This document shows, piece by piece, positions 5,473 through 39,856 of a stretch of DNA of 64,000 bases; position 1 is the first letter of the stretch; the number at the start of each line of letters is the position of its first letter. Location: contig NW_015971540.1 in NCBI RefSeq assembly GCF_000182565.1, positions 1 to 64,000 on the forward strand, read 5' to 3'. The notes beneath the pieces are model-generated. The model did no database searches. It saw only the letters and a list, made by a program, of their open reading frames with translations, and was not told the DNA's origin. This stretch comes from Spizellomyces punctatus DAOM BR117 (lineage: Eukaryota > Chytridiomycota > Chytridiomycetes > Spizellomycetales > Spizellomycetaceae). The translations under genes and the position numbers were made by a program.

Positions 5473-6303
5473 ATGGACACTGAAGACATTTCCAATCCCG
5501 ATGAGGATGGATGGTCCAGCGCAGCTTCAAGTGAATCGGATCCGACCTACGTTCCTCCTTGGTATGGGGAGGAAGCTGATGACTACGAGAGTGGCGACTC
5601 TTCCGACTCTCATTCTGATTCTTTCTACGAACGGGAGGCACAAGAAGTAGAAGAAGCGGCTATGAATGAAGAAGCTGATGCGGAAGCAAAAAAACGTTAT
5701 CGACATCTACGACGATATCTAGAGACGAAAGTCGCTAACCCTCAATTTGACGAGAATCCATACATACCGAGCGACAGCGAAGCGAGTACGTGCACTGATA
5801 TGGAGTATCAAGCCTCCTGGCTTGAGAGACTCTATCTACCAGATATGGTGGACGACATGGACATCAGCGCTGATGACAACGTAGCTGGTTCCTCCTCGTC
5901 TGCTGCTGGGAATCAGAACAGCGAAGAAAATCCCGCCATAAGAGAAGATGCTGACGAATACGTGAGTAGTGATGGGCTGGAAGGGCTATATTCAGAACAT
6001 CTCGCCATAAGGCAGATGCGTTTTGAGCAATGCCGTACAGATTTTTGCTTGGATCGCGATGGAATCAAGCAGCTTGTCCGGGAGGCTGCGGCATTGGTGC
6101 TATCTAATACCAAGTTCACCAGAAAAGCGATTGATGCCTTGCAAACCGCGGCCGAAGATTTTCTTGTGCAAAGATTCAAGCTTGCTTACAGGCTGGCTTT
6201 GAGCAATTATAGCGCTTCTGCTGACAATGAAAAGCAAGTGAAGCTAACTGTGAAGAATTTCTGGGTGGCGTGTGCAATTATGGAGGGACGAGATTACCCG
6301 TAG
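5473..6303 (+). CDS. Acidic protein with C-terminal histone-H3-like fold
   Basis: Single-exon gene of 276 residues starting at the first ATG. Residues 1-190 are very rich in Asp, Glu and Ser, the opposite charge of a histone tail. Residues about 194-275 match the helix pattern of the H3/CENP-A fold. A helix-1-like RDGIKQLVREAA corresponds to the H3 region ending in LVREIA. The long helix 2, KFTRKAIDALQTAAEDFLV, corresponds to the H3 helix starting RFQSSAV and containing ALQEASEAYLV. Helix 3 is VKNFWVACAIMEGR. Loop 2 appears about eight residues longer than in H3. No basic N-terminal tail is visible. By inference it could be an H3-fold chaperone, a decoy or a specialised chromatin protein. A divergent CENP-A is less likely because of the acidic extension. 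The resemblance was seen by eye. Confidence 0.75.
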   Translation: MDTEDISNPDEDGWSSAASSESDPTYVPPWYGEEADDYESGDSSDSHSDSFYEREAQEVEEAAMNEEADAEAKKRYRHLRRYLETKVANPQFDENPYIPSDSEASTCTDMEYQASWLERLYLPDMVDDMDISADDNVAGSSSSAAGNQNSEENPAIREDADEYVSSDGLEGLYSEHLAIRQMRFEQCRTDFCLDRDGIKQLVREAAALVLSNTKFTRKAIDALQTAAEDFLVQRFKLAYRLALSNYSASADNEKQVKLTVKNFWVACAIMEGRDYP

Positions 6304-7331
6304 CTGGTACAGCACTGTAATGTACTGCAGCGATAGATAGAGATTGGTGCATCTGAACTGCTTACATGAGGACTTTGGTGTGGCTTTTTTGGCGATCCGC
6401 ACAAGTTGCCGTCTTTTATACGATGGACGCAGGCAAACCTGGTGCCTTGTGAATGGGAATTACACATAGCCAATATGGGTGCGTCTATAGTGTCGTCATC
6501 TAACCATGCAGTTGCTAAATGCCAGTCTGCCCACCCTGGTAACAGCTACTTTAAGATCTTCAGCAATTTTTCTCTGAGATTGCATACGAAACATTTGGAC
6601 ATTGCAAACTAAGGAATTTTCGGGTGTAGAAGCCATTTCTGGTGATGAAAGTAAGCATAACCCGAACCTGTGAGAGGGGTGCATACTTATGTCGGGCATT
6701 GAGCTGTGTACCACCATGTTTTCAAAAAATACTGCCATAGTTGCAATGATTGTAGACAAGGCTAAACGACTGCTATGCTTGAACGGTAAATAGGTCGTAT
6801 AACTAGACGAGTCCAATTAACTCCCTTATTGCATATGCCACACTCTGCAAAGATTCTGTTCACGCATATGATGGGCAACATGCGGATATCCTGCAATCCA
6901 AAGTCAGCCTTTCCTTGTCTCGAAATCGGCAGTTCGCTGATCAGTAAGCATCGACATCGTGCTGGTAAAATACATCATGACAATGGGCTCATGTCATCCA
7001 TAGCGTAAAATATAACTTTACAAGTGAAGAGTGGGAAGCCAAAGTGTAGTGCAATGTTTATGGTAAAGTCATGCATGGATACCAGTACAAACGAACATCA
7101 AGTTTATTTCAGGCAAAGAATCAAAGAGCGTCGGACTACACTACGTTACCCTATGAACGACGACTCTCCCTCATTAATTGCGCATACGTTGTCTTGCACC
7201 CTGTAACACGACTAGCCACAATCGCCTTAACGCAACGCTCCTTGCCAACGTCACGGCAGTTGAGATGGTCGAAACGGTGCTGGCGAGAGCGGTTAACGGA
7301 GGATGAGCAAGCGTATAGGTTGTTGGGATGG
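6304..7331. other. Intergenic, contains one copy of a dispersed repeat
   Basis: No convincing gene. Positions 6619-6710 match 10654-10745 (see repeat entries). Confidence 0.5.
6619..6710. repeat. Dispersed repeat, copy A
   Basis: Begins TTCGGGTGTAGAAGCCATTT and continues with ATAACCCGAAC, GAGAGGG and ATACTTATG in the same order as the copy near 10654. The copies differ by substitutions and by an A-tract in the second copy. Origin unknown. Confidence 0.7.
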
Positions 7332-10317: not shown

Positions 10318-10508
10318 GATCAGACGTGATGAGGCAGTGTGCAGATATCTATTAGCTCATCGCATGAGCCGTTCTTTGTCAAGTGTATCTATACGCCTTA
10401 TAGTACAGTTGCTGATCAGACGTGATGATCAGTGTGCAGATATCTATTAGGTCACCGCATGAGACGTTCTTTGTCAAATGTATCTATACGTCTTATAGTA
10501 CAGTTGCT
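10318..10508. repeat. Two-copy ~96-bp tandem repeat
   Basis: Unit 1 is 10318-10413 and unit 2 is 10414-10508. Both start GATCAGACGTGATGA and end TATAGTACAGTTGCT, with a few substitutions and a small indel between copies. It lies just downstream of the gene ending at 10301. Confidence 0.8.
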
Positions 10509-10547
10509 GAATCAGAAGAGAAAGCAGTTCTTTGTTTACAATTATGA

Positions 10548-10653: not shown

Positions 10654-10745
10654 TTCGGGTGTAGAAGCCATTTGTGGTATCAAAAAAAAAAAAAAAAAAA
10701 AAACCATAACCCGAACTTATGAGAGGGCGGTATACTTATGCGACA
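10654..10745. repeat. Dispersed repeat, copy B
   Basis: Second copy of the element at 6619-6710, with an inserted run of about 22 A (10682 onward). It directly abuts the BMT5-like fragment. Confidence 0.7.
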
Positions 10746-11234: not shown

Positions 11235-12152
11235 ATGAGCATCAAGATTGAAGTTCTTTGGGGTCCTGAACCAGAGGGCAAGTTTATCACCCTGCCACTG
11301 GCGTCCGGGCGGTTTCAAAAGATCTTATTTGATCGCAGTTTGCCAAAGGTTCTTATTGTGGGAGAAGGCAAAAACTTCACATTCACAGCCGCCTTTGTAG
11401 CGCTCAGACGATCCTTCGAGAACGTCATTACAACCACATGGCCAGTTCTTTCGCCGGATTGGAGTGAAGTGGTAAAGACTGCCTTGTCGAATGCGCACAG
11501 AAACCAAGAGTTCCTCGCCAAGTCTGATCTTTATGGTAGATGAATTTGCCTGAGCCATGGCAGAAACATTGATAACAATCTCCTTTCACTAGATACCACG
11601 TCATTCACCGTTGAAGAAGTATATACTCGCTACGGAAGCATTTTTGGTGTATCACCTTCCACTGGTCCAACCTATATCGGAAATGTCAATGCGACAGAAC
11701 TTGAAGAACACGACAATATAATTCACAGTCATTGCGAAAACATTTTTTTCCAGTGTCCCCACGACGGGCAATCGGGAACCCAGCACCTGATTGTGAGTTT
11801 TATGTCGAGTGCCGCGCGGGTGCAGAAGGCTGGGAACTACCTGTTCCTTGGAATCACTAAAGATGGACGATATTCCAATGTTTATGGCCTTCGTGAGCTT
11901 ATTGAAACATCTGCACCAAACATCGGTTATCGGTTGGAAGGGGTCGATGACATTACTATTCAAAAGATACTGCATTTTGGGTACAGGCATCAAGCAAGAA
12001 GAGATGAAGATGATATCCATGACAGAATATTAGCGCATCATGTTACGCTTGTTTTTCATAGAGAGGTTGTTTGGTTTTGCTTGAACAAACAGCCTTACAC
12101 GATGAATATTAAATCGGCATTTTTTCAAAGGACTCTTCCAGTAGCCCAGTAA
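11235..12152 (+). CDS. DUF2431/BMT5-like Rossmann methyltransferase-family protein, divergent
   Basis: Two exons, 11235-11535 and 11593-12152, flank a 57-nt GT-AG intron and give 286 residues. Exon 1 carries KVLIVGEGKNFTFTAAF, which corresponds to the glycine-rich GEGdFSF motif of the DUF2431 domain in 25S rRNA uridine-N3 methyltransferases of the Bmt5 type. Exon 2 carries IFFQCPHDGQ, matching the family's FNFPH motif, and a stretch with GNYLFLGITKDGRYSNVYGL. Both motifs are altered (an insertion in GEG.FSF; Gln-Cys before PH), so catalytic activity is uncertain. A partial copy lies about 0.9 kb upstream, suggesting a locally duplicating family. ATG 11199 is an alternative start. Confidence 0.7.
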
Positions 12153-17467: not shown

Positions 17468-19120
17468 CTAGTTGGTGTTCTTTTGAGAGGTGTTGTTGTT
17501 GGCCGTCTGCTTGTTCGCGTTTGCTTGGCCGTTCTTCTGGTTGTTGTTCTGCTTGTTATTCTGGTTGTTATTCTTCTTGTTGTTCTGGTTGTTGTTATTC
17601 TTTTGAGAAGCGTTGTTGTTGGCCGTCTGCGTGGTGTTTTGGTTTGCGTTTGCTTGGCCGTTCTTCTGGTTGTTGTTCTGCTTGTTCTTTTGGTTGTCCT
17701 TTTCGTTGTTGTTCTGCTTATTGTTATTCTTCTGAGAGGTGTTGTTGTTGGCCGTCTGCGTGGTGTTTTGGTTCGCGTTTGCTTGGCCGTTCTTCTGGTT
17801 GTTGTTCTGCTTATTGTTATTCTTTTGAGAGGTGTTGTTGTTGGCCGTTTGCGTGGTGTTTTGGTTTGCGTTTGCTTGGCCGTTCTTCTGGTTGTTGTTC
17901 TGTTTGTTATTCTGCTTGTTGTTCTGGTTGTTGTTATTGTTTGCAAATTTGAGGTCGATGGCCACACCCTTCCCATTCAAGACGGGAGTAATTGGTGATT
18001 TAAACCCGAGTAACCCCTCACAATTCAAACCATCCGCTCCAAAAGAGTTTGCAAATCGTGCCCCAAGAAAGGTAAACAAGTTGTTGCCTGTGGCGGGATC
18101 CGGCGTAGTTCCTTTGATGGTCAAACCTTTTTGACTCTGGATTACAGGCGGCGCAACCTTGGCAAAGTTTTGACAATATGTTTTGGGGTCAGCGTCTTTA
18201 AGCGTCGCAGCGAGAGTTTGACCGACTTCTTTGCGGTAGGCATTGATTTTGTTGAGATTCTGCTTGCCATTAACGAGCACCATCGGATCATTGGCGGGTA
18301 TTAGGGCGACGGGAGCTCCTTGGAGGGAGGCTTGAAGTTCGTCTGTACCAAGGGTTGCGCGCTTTGCGCCAGGATCATCCAAGGCGGACACGAGGAACGG
18401 AGTGCATCCGATAGCAGGGTCCAAAAAGGCTGTGAGAAGAGCGTTGTCGGAACCATTGTTAATAACTTTGGCTTTCTTTCCCAGTTTTTTCCTGTTGTCT
18501 GCTGTATCCTGCGCAGTAGTTTCTCCAACTTGGAGGTATTGCGTATTTACATTATCTGATTGGTCCTGGTCGATAACGGCGAACGATCGGACAGTGGGGC
18601 AGGTGGTACCGTCTTTAGCGTTACCGAGTTGGGGAATCTTGGCTTGCTTTTGCGCTGCAGCAAAGAAGCCCGCTCCGTTGCAAGAAGCAAATTGACCGAA
18701 AATGCTGTTTCCGAGACCATTGACACATTTGGCTTGCTTGAGCGAACCCTTTACGTCGACAAGCTGGAGATTGTCTGCATTGGTACCAAACCAAATGCCA
18801 ACAATCGCATTTGCGGGAAGGGTGGGAACAACAGGTGCAATGGCGGGTTTGGTCCCTTTTGTGATGACGAGAGGAGAATATGCAAACAGTTCTCCAGTGG
18901 CGGGATCCAGGATGGTGGCCTCTACAAAGCTTTGTGTGTTTGGATCAGACTGCTTGCAGCCGCCAGCGAGTTCGTAAGGGGTAGCTAGCCCTTGGGCGGA
19001 AAGGGCATTAGGAGGAACCGTGAGTGTGCATGGCGCTTTTGCCGCTGGGGCCGCCTGGGCCTTTGCGGTAAAGAGAAGGATGCTACAGCCGAGGATAACA
19101 AGGATTTTGTTGAAAGGCAT
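17468..19120 (-). CDS. Secreted protein of a conserved fungal family with Q/N-rich repeat tail
   Basis: Single exon, 550 residues, read from ATG 19120. An upstream in-frame ATG exists but the signal peptide starts here: MPFNKILVILGCSILLF, with likely cleavage after AQA. Residues about 25-400 form a compact Cys-containing domain. Landmarks are SAQGLATPYEL, PVVPTLPANAIVGIWFGTN, NSIFGQFASCNGAGFF and CPTVRSFAVIDQDQSDNV. I recognise this as a conserved extracellular domain of unknown function in many fungi. The C-terminal ~150 residues are almost only Asn, Gln, Lys, Thr, Ala and Ser, in four repeats built around QKNGQANANQNTTQTANNN. The tail is prion-like in composition and may mediate cell-wall or surface aggregation (inference). 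Gene ends TAG at 17468. Confidence 0.85.
   Translation of the reverse strand: MPFNKILVILGCSILLFTAKAQAAPAAKAPCTLTVPPNALSAQGLATPYELAGGCKQSDPNTQSFVEATILDPATGELFAYSPLVITKGTKPAIAPVVPTLPANAIVGIWFGTNADNLQLVDVKGSLKQAKCVNGLGNSIFGQFASCNGAGFFAAAQKQAKIPQLGNAKDGTTCPTVRSFAVIDQDQSDNVNTQYLQVGETTAQDTADNRKKLGKKAKVINNGSDNALLTAFLDPAIGCTPFLVSALDDPGAKRATLGTDELQASLQGAPVALIPANDPMVLVNGKQNLNKINAYRKEVGQTLAATLKDADPKTYCQNFAKVAPPVIQSQKGLTIKGTTPDPATGNNLFTFLGARFANSFGADGLNCEGLLGFKSPITPVLNGKGVAIDLKFANNNNNQNNKQNNKQNNNQKNGQANANQNTTQTANNNTSQKNNNKQNNNQKNGQANANQNTTQTANNNTSQKNNNKQNNNEKDNQKNKQNNNQKNGQANANQNTTQTANNNASQKNNNNQNNKKNNNQNNKQNNNQKNGQANANKQTANNNTSQKNTN
17485..17945 (-). repeat. Coding tandem repeats of ~93 bp and longer variants
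   Basis: Four imperfect units inside the secreted-protein gene. Two are nearly identical 31-residue units; the others carry extra N/Q/K-rich insertions. The strand asymmetry (G/T-rich on the plus strand) produces open but meaningless frames on the other strand. Confidence 0.85.
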
Positions 19121-19952
19121 GCTGCCTTCTTCAAGGTCGGAAGGAAAGGTTGTTGAACTCTGGTGTGTGCTTCTTGGCAAAAGGCAACCATTTGTATTTT
19201 CATATTTATGTGCATCGTAATTAAAAGTTCAATCAGCTGTGGGAAAATTGGAGAAGAAGAGGAGATCCGCGTGAGAAAAAAATAAATTCCAAAATCGAAT
19301 TGCGAATATTCCCACAGGTCATTTAATTAATAAACCCCTTAGAAAGACTCCCCTGAAACACGTCTGGCTGCCTAAGCCGTTGTTGATGGAACTTCTAGAG
19401 ATAAAACAGCTCCGCAAAATAAATTTAAACAAAAGCAAGGCATGAAGCAGGAGATGGACAATGCTTACAGCCGAAACAGCCAAACCGACCGTCGGGTTGG
19501 ATTGCACACAAGAGAGAATGTGACTTGATGATGACGATGAGTGGTTACGCTCAAATAATATGGCTCCGATGACCGCCGATTGCCCTTGACAATCAAGACG
19601 AGCACATTTTACCCATTAAACTCCCTCTCGGCAATTGCCAGCCATGAAACAGCATCAAGATCGTACCAAACAAAATGAACACAAGAGTTGATTGTATGAC
19701 GGAACAACTCTCGCTGCAAAACACACATAGTGACCTTGACAATGCAAAGTATTCACGTGAATTCAACCTATGAACGGCGAACGGCCGCCGCTTATGAGAC
19801 TTTAGGGGTTTACTTCACACCTAGCATACTGCTGTATGGGACCATGTTCTGTGGTTTGAGGATGGACTTGGACAAAACTGCCCCCGCTGAGGGATAGCAG
19901 GTTTCATACTTTGTACTGGGAGGGCGATGCTACGTCCGGCAAGGTATTATTT
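19121..19952. other. Intergenic
   Basis: Promoter side of the secreted protein and 3' side of the HhH gene. No supported gene. Confidence 0.5.
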
Positions 19953-37569: not shown

Positions 37570-39856
37570 ATGGCTACGGACACGCTTGCCATCAACACGA
37601 TTCGCACACTCGCTCCTGATGTCGTCCAAAAGGCAAACTCTGGTCATCCAGGCGCTCCCATGGGATGTGCTCCCATGGCTCACGTCTTGTTTTCACGCTT
37701 CATCTCTGCCAACCCACAGAACCCTCACTGGGTATGTCTTATTGGTTTTTTTTTATCACGTATTGCTTGCTCACTTTTGTTGTTTCGCAGATTAACCGCG
37801 ATCGCTTTGTTTTGTCAAACGGTCACGGATGTGTTCTGCAGTATGTCATGCTTCACCTCCTCGGCTATGACTTGTCCATGGAGGACCTGCAATCCTTTCG
37901 TCAAGTAGGCTCAAAGTAAGAGTTTTTTTATGGTTGGGATGAACAGAGAGGGCATCGCCATTGTGGCAAAATGCCCGTCGTGTCCCACTTTTGCCTTACG
38001 TTCCCCTCGTCTATGCCACTCACTAACGCTCGGTCATGACTCGTTGCCAGAACCCCAGGTCATCCAGAGGCAAACCACGGCACACCAGGAATCGAGGTTA
38101 CTACCGGCCCCCTCGGTCAGGGCATTGCCAGTGCCGTCGGTCTCGCTATTGCAGAGGCCCACCTCGCCGCTGAATTCAACCAGCCCGGCTTTGATCTCGT
38201 TGACAACTACACCTACTGCATCCTCGGTGACGGTTGCATGCAAGAAGGCGTTCAAGCGGAAGCCGCTTCCTTGGCTGGCCACTTGCAACTGGGCAAACTC
38301 ATTGCCTTGTACGATGACAACCACATTCAGATTGACGGAGACACTGCCCTTGGATTCACAGAAAATGTCCGCTTGCGCTACGAATCTTATGGCTGGCACG
38401 TTCAGTTTGTCGAAAACGGTGACTCGGACATTGCCGCGTTGACCAACGCCATTGAAGCCGCCAAAAAAGTCACAGACAAACCATCCTTGATCCAAGTCCG
38501 CACCACCATTGGCTATGGATCAAAGAATGAGGGAGAGGAAAAGGTTCACGGTGCTCCCCTCGGCGAACCCGATATCGCTCAAGTAAAGACCAAATTTGGT
38601 TTTAGCCCCGACCAGAAATTCAATGTCCCCCAACAAGTCTATGACTTTTACGGCAAGGTAGCTGCCAAGGGCAAGGACGCAGAAGCCCAGTGGAACCAGC
38701 TCTTTGACCGCTACGCGGCTCAGTTCCCTCAGCTCGCCGCTGACTTTAAGCGTCGCCTCGCCAAAAAACTCCCAGACAACATCAAAGATCTCTTGCCCAC
38801 CTACAAGCCCAGTGACCCCCCCGTGGCGACCCGCAAACTCTCTGAAACCGTCTTGAACAAGATCGCCCCACAGCTTCCCGAGCTTATTGGTGGTTCGGCC
38901 GATTTGACTGGCTCAAATCTGACCCGCTGGAAGGGCGCCGAAGACTTTCAACCCCCATCCACTAAACTTGGCTCGTACAAGGGCCGCTACATTCGCTTTG
39001 GTGTCCGCGAACACGCCATGGCCGCGATTTGCAACGGTATCTCTGCTTACGGGGCCTTGATTCCCTTTGGAGCCACCTTTTTCAACTTTATCAGCTACGC
39101 TCTCGGTGCCGTCCGTTTGAGCGCATTGTCCAAGCATCACGTTTTGTACATTATGACCCACGACTCGATTGGATTGGGCGAAGACGGTCCTACCCATCAA
39201 CCCATTGAGACGCTGGCCTGCATGCGCGCCATGCCCAACATTCTCAACTTTAGACCCGCGGATGGCAACGAAGTCTCTGGCTCCTACCTCGTGTCTCTTG
39301 AAGCCCACGACCGCCCCTCTGTACTGATTCTCACCCGCCAAAACCTCCCCCAGCTCGCCGGCTCCTCGATTGAAGCCGTCCGTAAGGGCGCCTACGTCCT
39401 CGAAGACGCACCCAACCCCTCGGTCATTCTGGTCGCCACGGGTTCCGAAGTCTCCCTTGCGGTCGACACGGCCGCCCAGCTTGCCAGTGAAAACATTGCT
39501 GCTCGCGTTGTTTCAATGCCCTGTTGGGAGCTCTTCGAGGAGCAATCGGTCGAGTACCAGCAATCCGTCTTTTTGGATGGCGTGCCTGTCGTGAGCATTG
39601 AAGCCATGTCAACGTTTGGATGGCAAAAGTGGGCGCATTTGACGTGTGGAATTGATACTTTTGGTGCGAGTGGGCCTTACAAGGTATGTCTGTTATTTTT
39701 TATCTTTACTTTTGCATATACTGACCATGACAATCTGGGATTTAGGACTTGTACAAGAAATTCGGACTGGTTCCTGATGTCATTGCTGCCAAAGCTAAAA
39801 AGCTGATTGCCTTTTACAAGGACCGCAAGCCCGAGAACAAGATTCAGAGGATTTAA
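37570..39856 (+). CDS. TKL1: Transketolase
   Basis: Four exons, 37570-37731, 37791-37915, 38051-39683 and 39746-39856, join in phase to 676 residues, the normal fungal length. A cytosolic enzyme of the pentose phosphate pathway that moves two-carbon units between sugar phosphates using thiamine diphosphate and a divalent metal. SGHPGAPMG (conserved His), [19 protein letters not shown], then [11 protein letters not shown] with the ThDP/metal GDG and a downstream [11 protein letters not shown]. Later come [47 protein letters not shown] and [11 protein letters not shown]. All recognised active-site motifs are present. The codon use looks biased toward C-ending codons, as expected for a highly expressed gene. 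Confidence 0.97.

Follow-up and report, generated by a model that had tools for sequence, protein, structure and literature searches.

An acidic-tailed histone H3-like protein in the chytrid fungus Spizellomyces punctatus

We found that Spizellomyces punctatus DAOM BR117 encodes a protein of 276 aa, here called P0001, in which a long acidic N-terminal tail is joined to a C-terminal region (residues 176-276) whose homology to histone H3, as judged by sequence comparison, is well supported. The explanation that we favour, tentatively and with a probability that we put somewhat short of even, is that P0001 is a non-nucleosomal H3 paralogue: its partner would be H4 or an H4-like protein, and its acidic tail would serve as a chaperone-like or activator-like arm.

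The gene is a single-exon open reading frame (5473..6303, + strand, ATG to TAG) in the first 64,000 nt of contig C4, a stretch that we refer to as the window; the whole genome comprises 24.0 Mb in 29 contigs. The reading frame is real. A run of 292 codons free of stops arises by chance with a probability of about 2.5e-7 per start, and since only about 0.0016 such frames are expected on both strands of 64 kb, the frame is not at chance level; the antisense of the ORF contains eight stops in the frame read. The gene lies about 5.5 kb from the contig end, and a search of its own genome with P0001 gave a single match, P0001 itself. No intron interrupts the frame, whereas the two H3 genes and the CENP-A gene of this genome are split, and the intronless frame makes an origin of P0001 as a retrocopy possible. 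At 345 bases past the gene, a 44-base stretch (6648-6691) begins that is repeated at 10697-10740 with 82% identity. Further along the window, at 10318-10516 and 11480-11585, a 95-base unit occurs about twice in tandem, together with a stretch 84-88% identical to sequence adjoining it, about 1 kb away; a genome search with these repeats listed no further copy. The window also holds a 570-aa frame on the minus strand (17468-19180), in which we noted by eye a possible signal at the N-terminus; its repeat region, rich in Asn, Gln and Lys, is made of 93- and 129-base units, and no Pfam match was obtained for the frame at E<=0.1. A transketolase frame on the plus strand (38238-39806) is without the start of its N-terminal domain and is therefore probably a later exon.

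The similarity of P0001 to H3 was assessed by several searches. The best Pfam match was Histone (PF00125), with E=3.3e-4 for the whole protein and 6.1e-5 for the C-terminal piece; the scores of 21.3 and 23.7 bits, respectively, are under the curated cut-off of 26.4 bits, below which P0001 has diverged. When PDB chains were searched by phmmer, the best match was H3.Y (5ay8, E=3.1e-4, P0001 residues 176-237), and the best 60 of the 159 matches were all named H3, H3 variant or H3/CENP-A chimera, except 7xcr_E, which is listed as a histone domain-containing protein. The H3 of S. punctatus itself scored 20.8 bits against the P0001 domain by phmmer; among 2000 shuffled domains, 1873 of which gave a score, the highest value was 8.0. 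Its CENP-A scored 12.3 bits (best shuffle 4.6), while its H4, H2A, H2A.Z-like and H2B proteins reached at most 2.0 bits, less than the 6.7 to 10.8 bits of the top shuffle for each. A similar order was obtained by hhalign with the alignment of P0001 and its relative P0002 from Fimicolochytrium jonesii: the value was 95.35% for the own H3 (score 48.2, against a maximum of 19.7 in 200 column shuffles), 87.57% for the own CENP-A and below 1% for each of H4, H2A, H2A.Z-like and H2B. P0002 alone scored 12.5 bits with the S. punctatus H3, 7.6 with its CENP-A and at most 2.4 with its other histones. On these scores the H3 resemblance of P0001 is beyond chance, and phmmer, the PDB search and hhalign all place it closer to H3 than to the other core histones, although P0001 and the own H3 are identical at 28 of 90 residues only, as against 83 of 90 shared between the own and the human H3. 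The original prediction, made from the DNA letters, would have been contradicted by the lack of any histone-fold match in profile searches; instead, phmmer and hhalign matched H3, and the best Pfam match was Histone. It had assigned an H3 helix pattern to residues 194-275, of which the likeness to H3 was borne out but the starting point was not, because the similarity sets in near residue 176 and takes in an alphaN helix, which the prediction had not listed. We ascribed two further weak Pfam rows, Csm1_B (E 0.033; 0.0039 for the piece) and Zn_ribbon_5 (E 1.1), to chance or to helical similarity, and no match to P0001 was found in NCBIfam, a prokaryote-oriented library.

Aligned with H3, the region begins with the alphaN-like helix (5998..6042, + strand, as for all the following parts; residues 176-190), in which LAIRQMR aligns with VALREIR of H3. 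It is followed by alpha1 of the H3-like fold (6055..6099, residues 195-209) and by alpha2 (6118..6207, residues 216-245), which contains the strongest H3 match (AIDALQTAAEDFLVQRF). Loop 2 (6208..6249) carries an insertion relative to H3, which had been predicted to be about eight residues long and which is 8 residues in our alignments; the insertion of P0002 is 5 residues. The weakest match is that of alpha3 (6250..6282, residues 260-270), where VKNFWVACAIM corresponds to H3 numbers 121-131; the best local matches stop between residues 236 and 258, and a global alignment was required to match this helix. The AlphaFold2 models of P0001 were of too low a confidence (pLDDT 55.8 and 48.3) to confirm the fold; in them the helices follow the order alphaN-1-2-3, those for alphaN, alpha2 and alpha3 lying at residues 172-192, 217-246 and 253-271, and there was no histone among the matches listed for these low-confidence models by Foldseek and VIA.

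P0002, an uncharacterized protein, is the closest named relative of P0001, and their folds are 62% identical (59/95). It begins at P0001 residue 125 and has the last part of the tail only (about 60 residues), which nevertheless provides the acidic-tailed chytrid relative that the original prediction had proposed to look for; its gene model may be short. P0002 contains 8 extra residues near loop 1; CENP-A, too, is longer in this region, and the PDB chain best matched by P0002 is a CENP-A named cnp1 (E 0.007). P0003 (188 aa) has kept the tail, with 78 of 150 aligned residues identical to P0001 (52%) and an acidic residue at 31 of the 42 acidic positions, and is without most of the fold, ending after alpha1 begins. 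Wrong splicing in the models of P0002 and P0003, or a real difference in the loop, may lie behind the extra residues of the former and the break in the latter. The full fold of this close family is present in P0001 and P0002 only. In P0001, P0002 and P0003 alike, the acidic tail runs directly into the start of the H3-like region; therefore, the layout seen in the window is no accident of a gene model.

The same layout occurs in a more distant protein, P0004 (462 aa), with an acidic part of 367 residues followed by a C-terminal H3-like fold that scores 48.2 bits to Pfam Histone, well above the cut-off. P0004 was found with P0001 alone (E=3.4e-3), and hhalign aligned it to P0001 and P0002 at 97.84% with a score of 71.45, compared with 48.2 for H3. 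It shares with P0001 the replacement of R63 by D and the string AAEDFLVQRF in alpha2, but it has no insertion in loop 2. Its identities are 35/87 to the own H3, 34/87 to human H3.1 and 34/88 to P0001, and in a tree of 8 sequences with long branches it falls outside H3 plus CENP-A with a support of 94 (80 under a mixture model). A profile of P0001 to P0003 returned only these three at E<=1, without P0004, among the 7986 candidates scored, which were those sharing most words, and the P0004 domain retrieved P0004 alone at E<=0.01 among 697 candidates. P0004 and the P0001 group may be one family or two independent cases on these comparisons. Pattern matches numbered 2 and 138 in two scans of viral contigs and 109 in a scan of bacterial and archaeal genomes; none of them was confirmed as a relative of P0001, and the matches in PHROGs were weak (best E 0.018); a viral or prokaryotic origin of P0001 is without supporting evidence in these searches and was set aside.

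The tail comprises residues 1-175 (5473..5997, + strand), with a net charge of -38 and a pI of 4.05, where a nucleosomal H3 has a basic N-terminal tail. An acidic tail in place of a basic one had been predicted, and is what we observed, but at about 175 residues it is shorter than the predicted length of about 190. The corresponding net charges are -10 for the acidic part of P0002 (62 aa), -40 for the whole of P0003 (188 aa) and -47 for that of P0004 (367 aa). Within the tail, a basic island of net charge +6 recognised by eye (5689..5730, + strand, residues 73-86) is a candidate nuclear localisation signal, and P0003 likewise has a basic run at this position. The motif LERLYLPDM (5821..5847, + strand, residues 117-125), which reads LEQLYLPDM in P0003, is a candidate partner-binding or activation motif.

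Such a tail could also be the activation domain of a transcription cofactor that docks on an H4-like partner through its H3-like fold; motifs like WLERLYLPDMVDDMD resemble acidic-hydrophobic activators. The bulky hydrophobic residues of the acidic tail and the conservation of LYLPDM in P0003 are in line with this, and histone folds are common in TFIID and SAGA subunits, TAF9 docking with TAF6. But the similarity of P0001 is specifically to H3, and no TAF or NF-Y Pfam family was reported for it at E<=10, a range where the HMMER filters drop most weak matches. The genome has separate genes for TAF9 and Asf1, and the former rules out that P0001 is TAF9 itself. We consider a cofactor rather unlikely.

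To relate the fold to function, we compared 16 DNA-contact and 29 core positions of H3. The core positions are hydrophobic at 28/29 in P0001, P0002 and the own CENP-A and at 25/29 in P0004, with 16 identical to H3 in P0001, 14 in P0004 and 21 in the own CENP-A. The DNA-contact residues of P0001 depart from those of a nucleosomal H3: 4/16 are identical, as in P0004 (P0002, 2/16), compared with 12/16 in the own and 10/16 in the human CENP-A. The H3 triplet R63-K64-L65 is replaced by D-R-D in P0001 (residues 194-196, window 6052-6060) and P0002, and by D-R-E in P0003 from the alignment, so that, with P0004 included, all four proteins have D in place of R63. Further substitutions in P0001 are R53 to F, K56 to C, R69 to Q and R116 to Q (H3 numbering), and P0002 in addition has R49D, R69E and K122E. 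Nevertheless, 8/16 of the DNA-contact positions of P0001 are K or R (R49, K64R, R72, R83K, S86R, K115, T118K and K122) and two are D or E, compared with 11 K or R in the own CENP-A and with six K or R and five D or E in P0002; some DNA binding by P0001 is possible, given these eight basic residues. The changes H113S, D123N and R129A, read from the global alignment, affect residues of the H3-H3' and Asf1 interfaces, and the handling of P0001 would accordingly be expected to differ from that of H3. With the core kept and the DNA contacts changed, the simplest inference is that the pairing of a histone-fold dimer has been retained and ordinary DNA wrapping lost; since the core hydrophobics of H3 are kept, pairing with H4, or the H4 partner trap suggested in the original prediction, is plausible.

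The same residues bear on the alternative that P0001 is a true H3 variant of special nucleosomes, for example those of the sporangium or zoospore stage, where the acidic tail would loosen chromatin. Descent from H3, the presence of the alphaN helix, the basic residues kept or gained at half of the contact positions and the net charge of +4 of the fold all agree with it. We nonetheless regard it as improbable, because so few contact residues are identical, R63 and L65 have both become D, F. jonesii has three further charge reversals, the H3-H3' residues are changed and a tail of net charge -38 would lie beside DNA.

The histone complement of the genome was surveyed with Pfam histone profiles, which gave 15 exon-level matches. 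By tblastn with human histones, these were assigned to two H3 genes, one CENP-A gene, two H4 genes, three H2A, two H2B, one H2A.Z-like (a label of our own assignment), P0001 and one leftover, L009 (C5:1445591-1445734), which tblastn did not place with any of the four core histones and which we presume, from how it reads, to be NF-YC-like. Because the genome already has two H3 genes, CENP-A and H4, P0001 is an extra gene of the H3 class. The own CENP-A (C1:1059265-1059659; L003, about 1313-1919) has three exons by eye and a long loop 1. Like P0001, CENP-A is an H3 paralogue with a diverged tail of its own. A longer loop 1 is the signature of CENP-A, whereas loop 1 of P0001 is of H3 length, and its scores with CENP-A are below those with H3; with a normal CENP-A gene present, we ruled out that P0001 is the centromeric H3.

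A kinetochore protein similar to CENP-T would also combine a long flexible N-terminal tail with a C-terminal histone fold. The CENP-T_C profile matches P0001 weakly (E 0.088 for the C-terminal piece; 8.5e-4 for P0004), and among the genome matches to this profile at E<=1, three in number and all from H4 and H3 genes, no CENP-T gene was recognised; CENP-T may be missing or unrecognised, and intron-split exons could hide it. However, the C-terminal piece reaches 13.3 bits, below the cut-off of 28.1 bits, and the whole protein is unlisted, while the own H3 scores 25.6 and the own H4 proteins 35.4 and 33.2, so the match reflects general histone likeness. CENP-T carries extra C-terminal helices after its histone fold, but P0001 ends right after alpha3 and is better matched by H3. 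We think a CENP-T-like role very unlikely. Slimmer still is the chance that P0001 is a functionless, decaying copy of H3 or CENP-A, as its strong divergence, its position near the contig end, its intronless frame (which could mean a retrocopy) and the lack of most of the fold in P0003 might indicate, for the 276-codon frame is intact, the core is hydrophobic at all but one position, and both fold and tail are conserved in P0002 and P0003 to the extent given above.

We return to P0001 as a non-nucleosomal H3 paralogue. With H3, among which H3.Y is its best PDB match, it shares the alphaN-alpha1-L1-alpha2 pattern, the length of loop 1 and the hydrophobic core, and it differs in the acidic tail, the 8 residues added to loop 2 and the DNA-contact residues, most of which are changed. 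In the titles and abstract openings of the papers listed in literature searches, no acidic-tailed H3 family is named. Acidic residues in N-terminal tails are described for the pandoravirus H2B and the medusavirus H2B- and H2A-like proteins (PMC9145170), but these giant-virus histones are of H2A/H2B types whereas P0001 is of H3 type. In composition only, the tail resembles the acidic domain of APLF and the acidic arms of chaperones, being a long acidic stretch dotted with aromatics, though in P0001 this stretch is joined to an H3-like fold. The APLF acidic domain is reported to bind core histones through aromatic anchors and to mimic DNA contacts (PMC9328677). By this precedent, if an H3-like fold with such a tail binds an H4 dimer, the tail could cover the basic face of the latter. 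The tail aromatics are identical in P0003 at 9/14 positions, compared with 78/150 overall, which is not a significant preference (P=0.25); as they are not clearly better kept, the idea of aromatic anchors is without statistical support.

As a non-nucleosomal paralogue, P0001 would work as follows. The H3-like fold would pair with H4 or an H4-like partner without wrapping DNA, and the acidic, aromatic-dotted tail would stand in for DNA and shield the basic surfaces of the histone so bound, much as the acidic arms of histone chaperones do. P0001 might in this way store, escort or compete for H4, or for H3-H4 or H2A-H2B complexes. A bolder proposal, which we hold to be doubtful, is that in a fungal lineage an H3-derived fold has itself become a histone chaperone, capturing H4 in an H3-H4-like dimer; as an acidic tail has taken the place of the basic one and key DNA-contact residues are changed, such a dimer would be unable to wrap DNA. 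P0001 would then be a self-contained trap or carrier of H4, possibly with a second and wider set of acidic-tailed H3 proteins, represented by P0004, in the same role elsewhere.

If P0001 is what we read it to be, the H3 fold would be reusable outside the nucleosome, despite the slow change of H3, and P0001 would offer a small protein with which the control of H4 supply or of H3-H4 assembly could be tested in chytrids.
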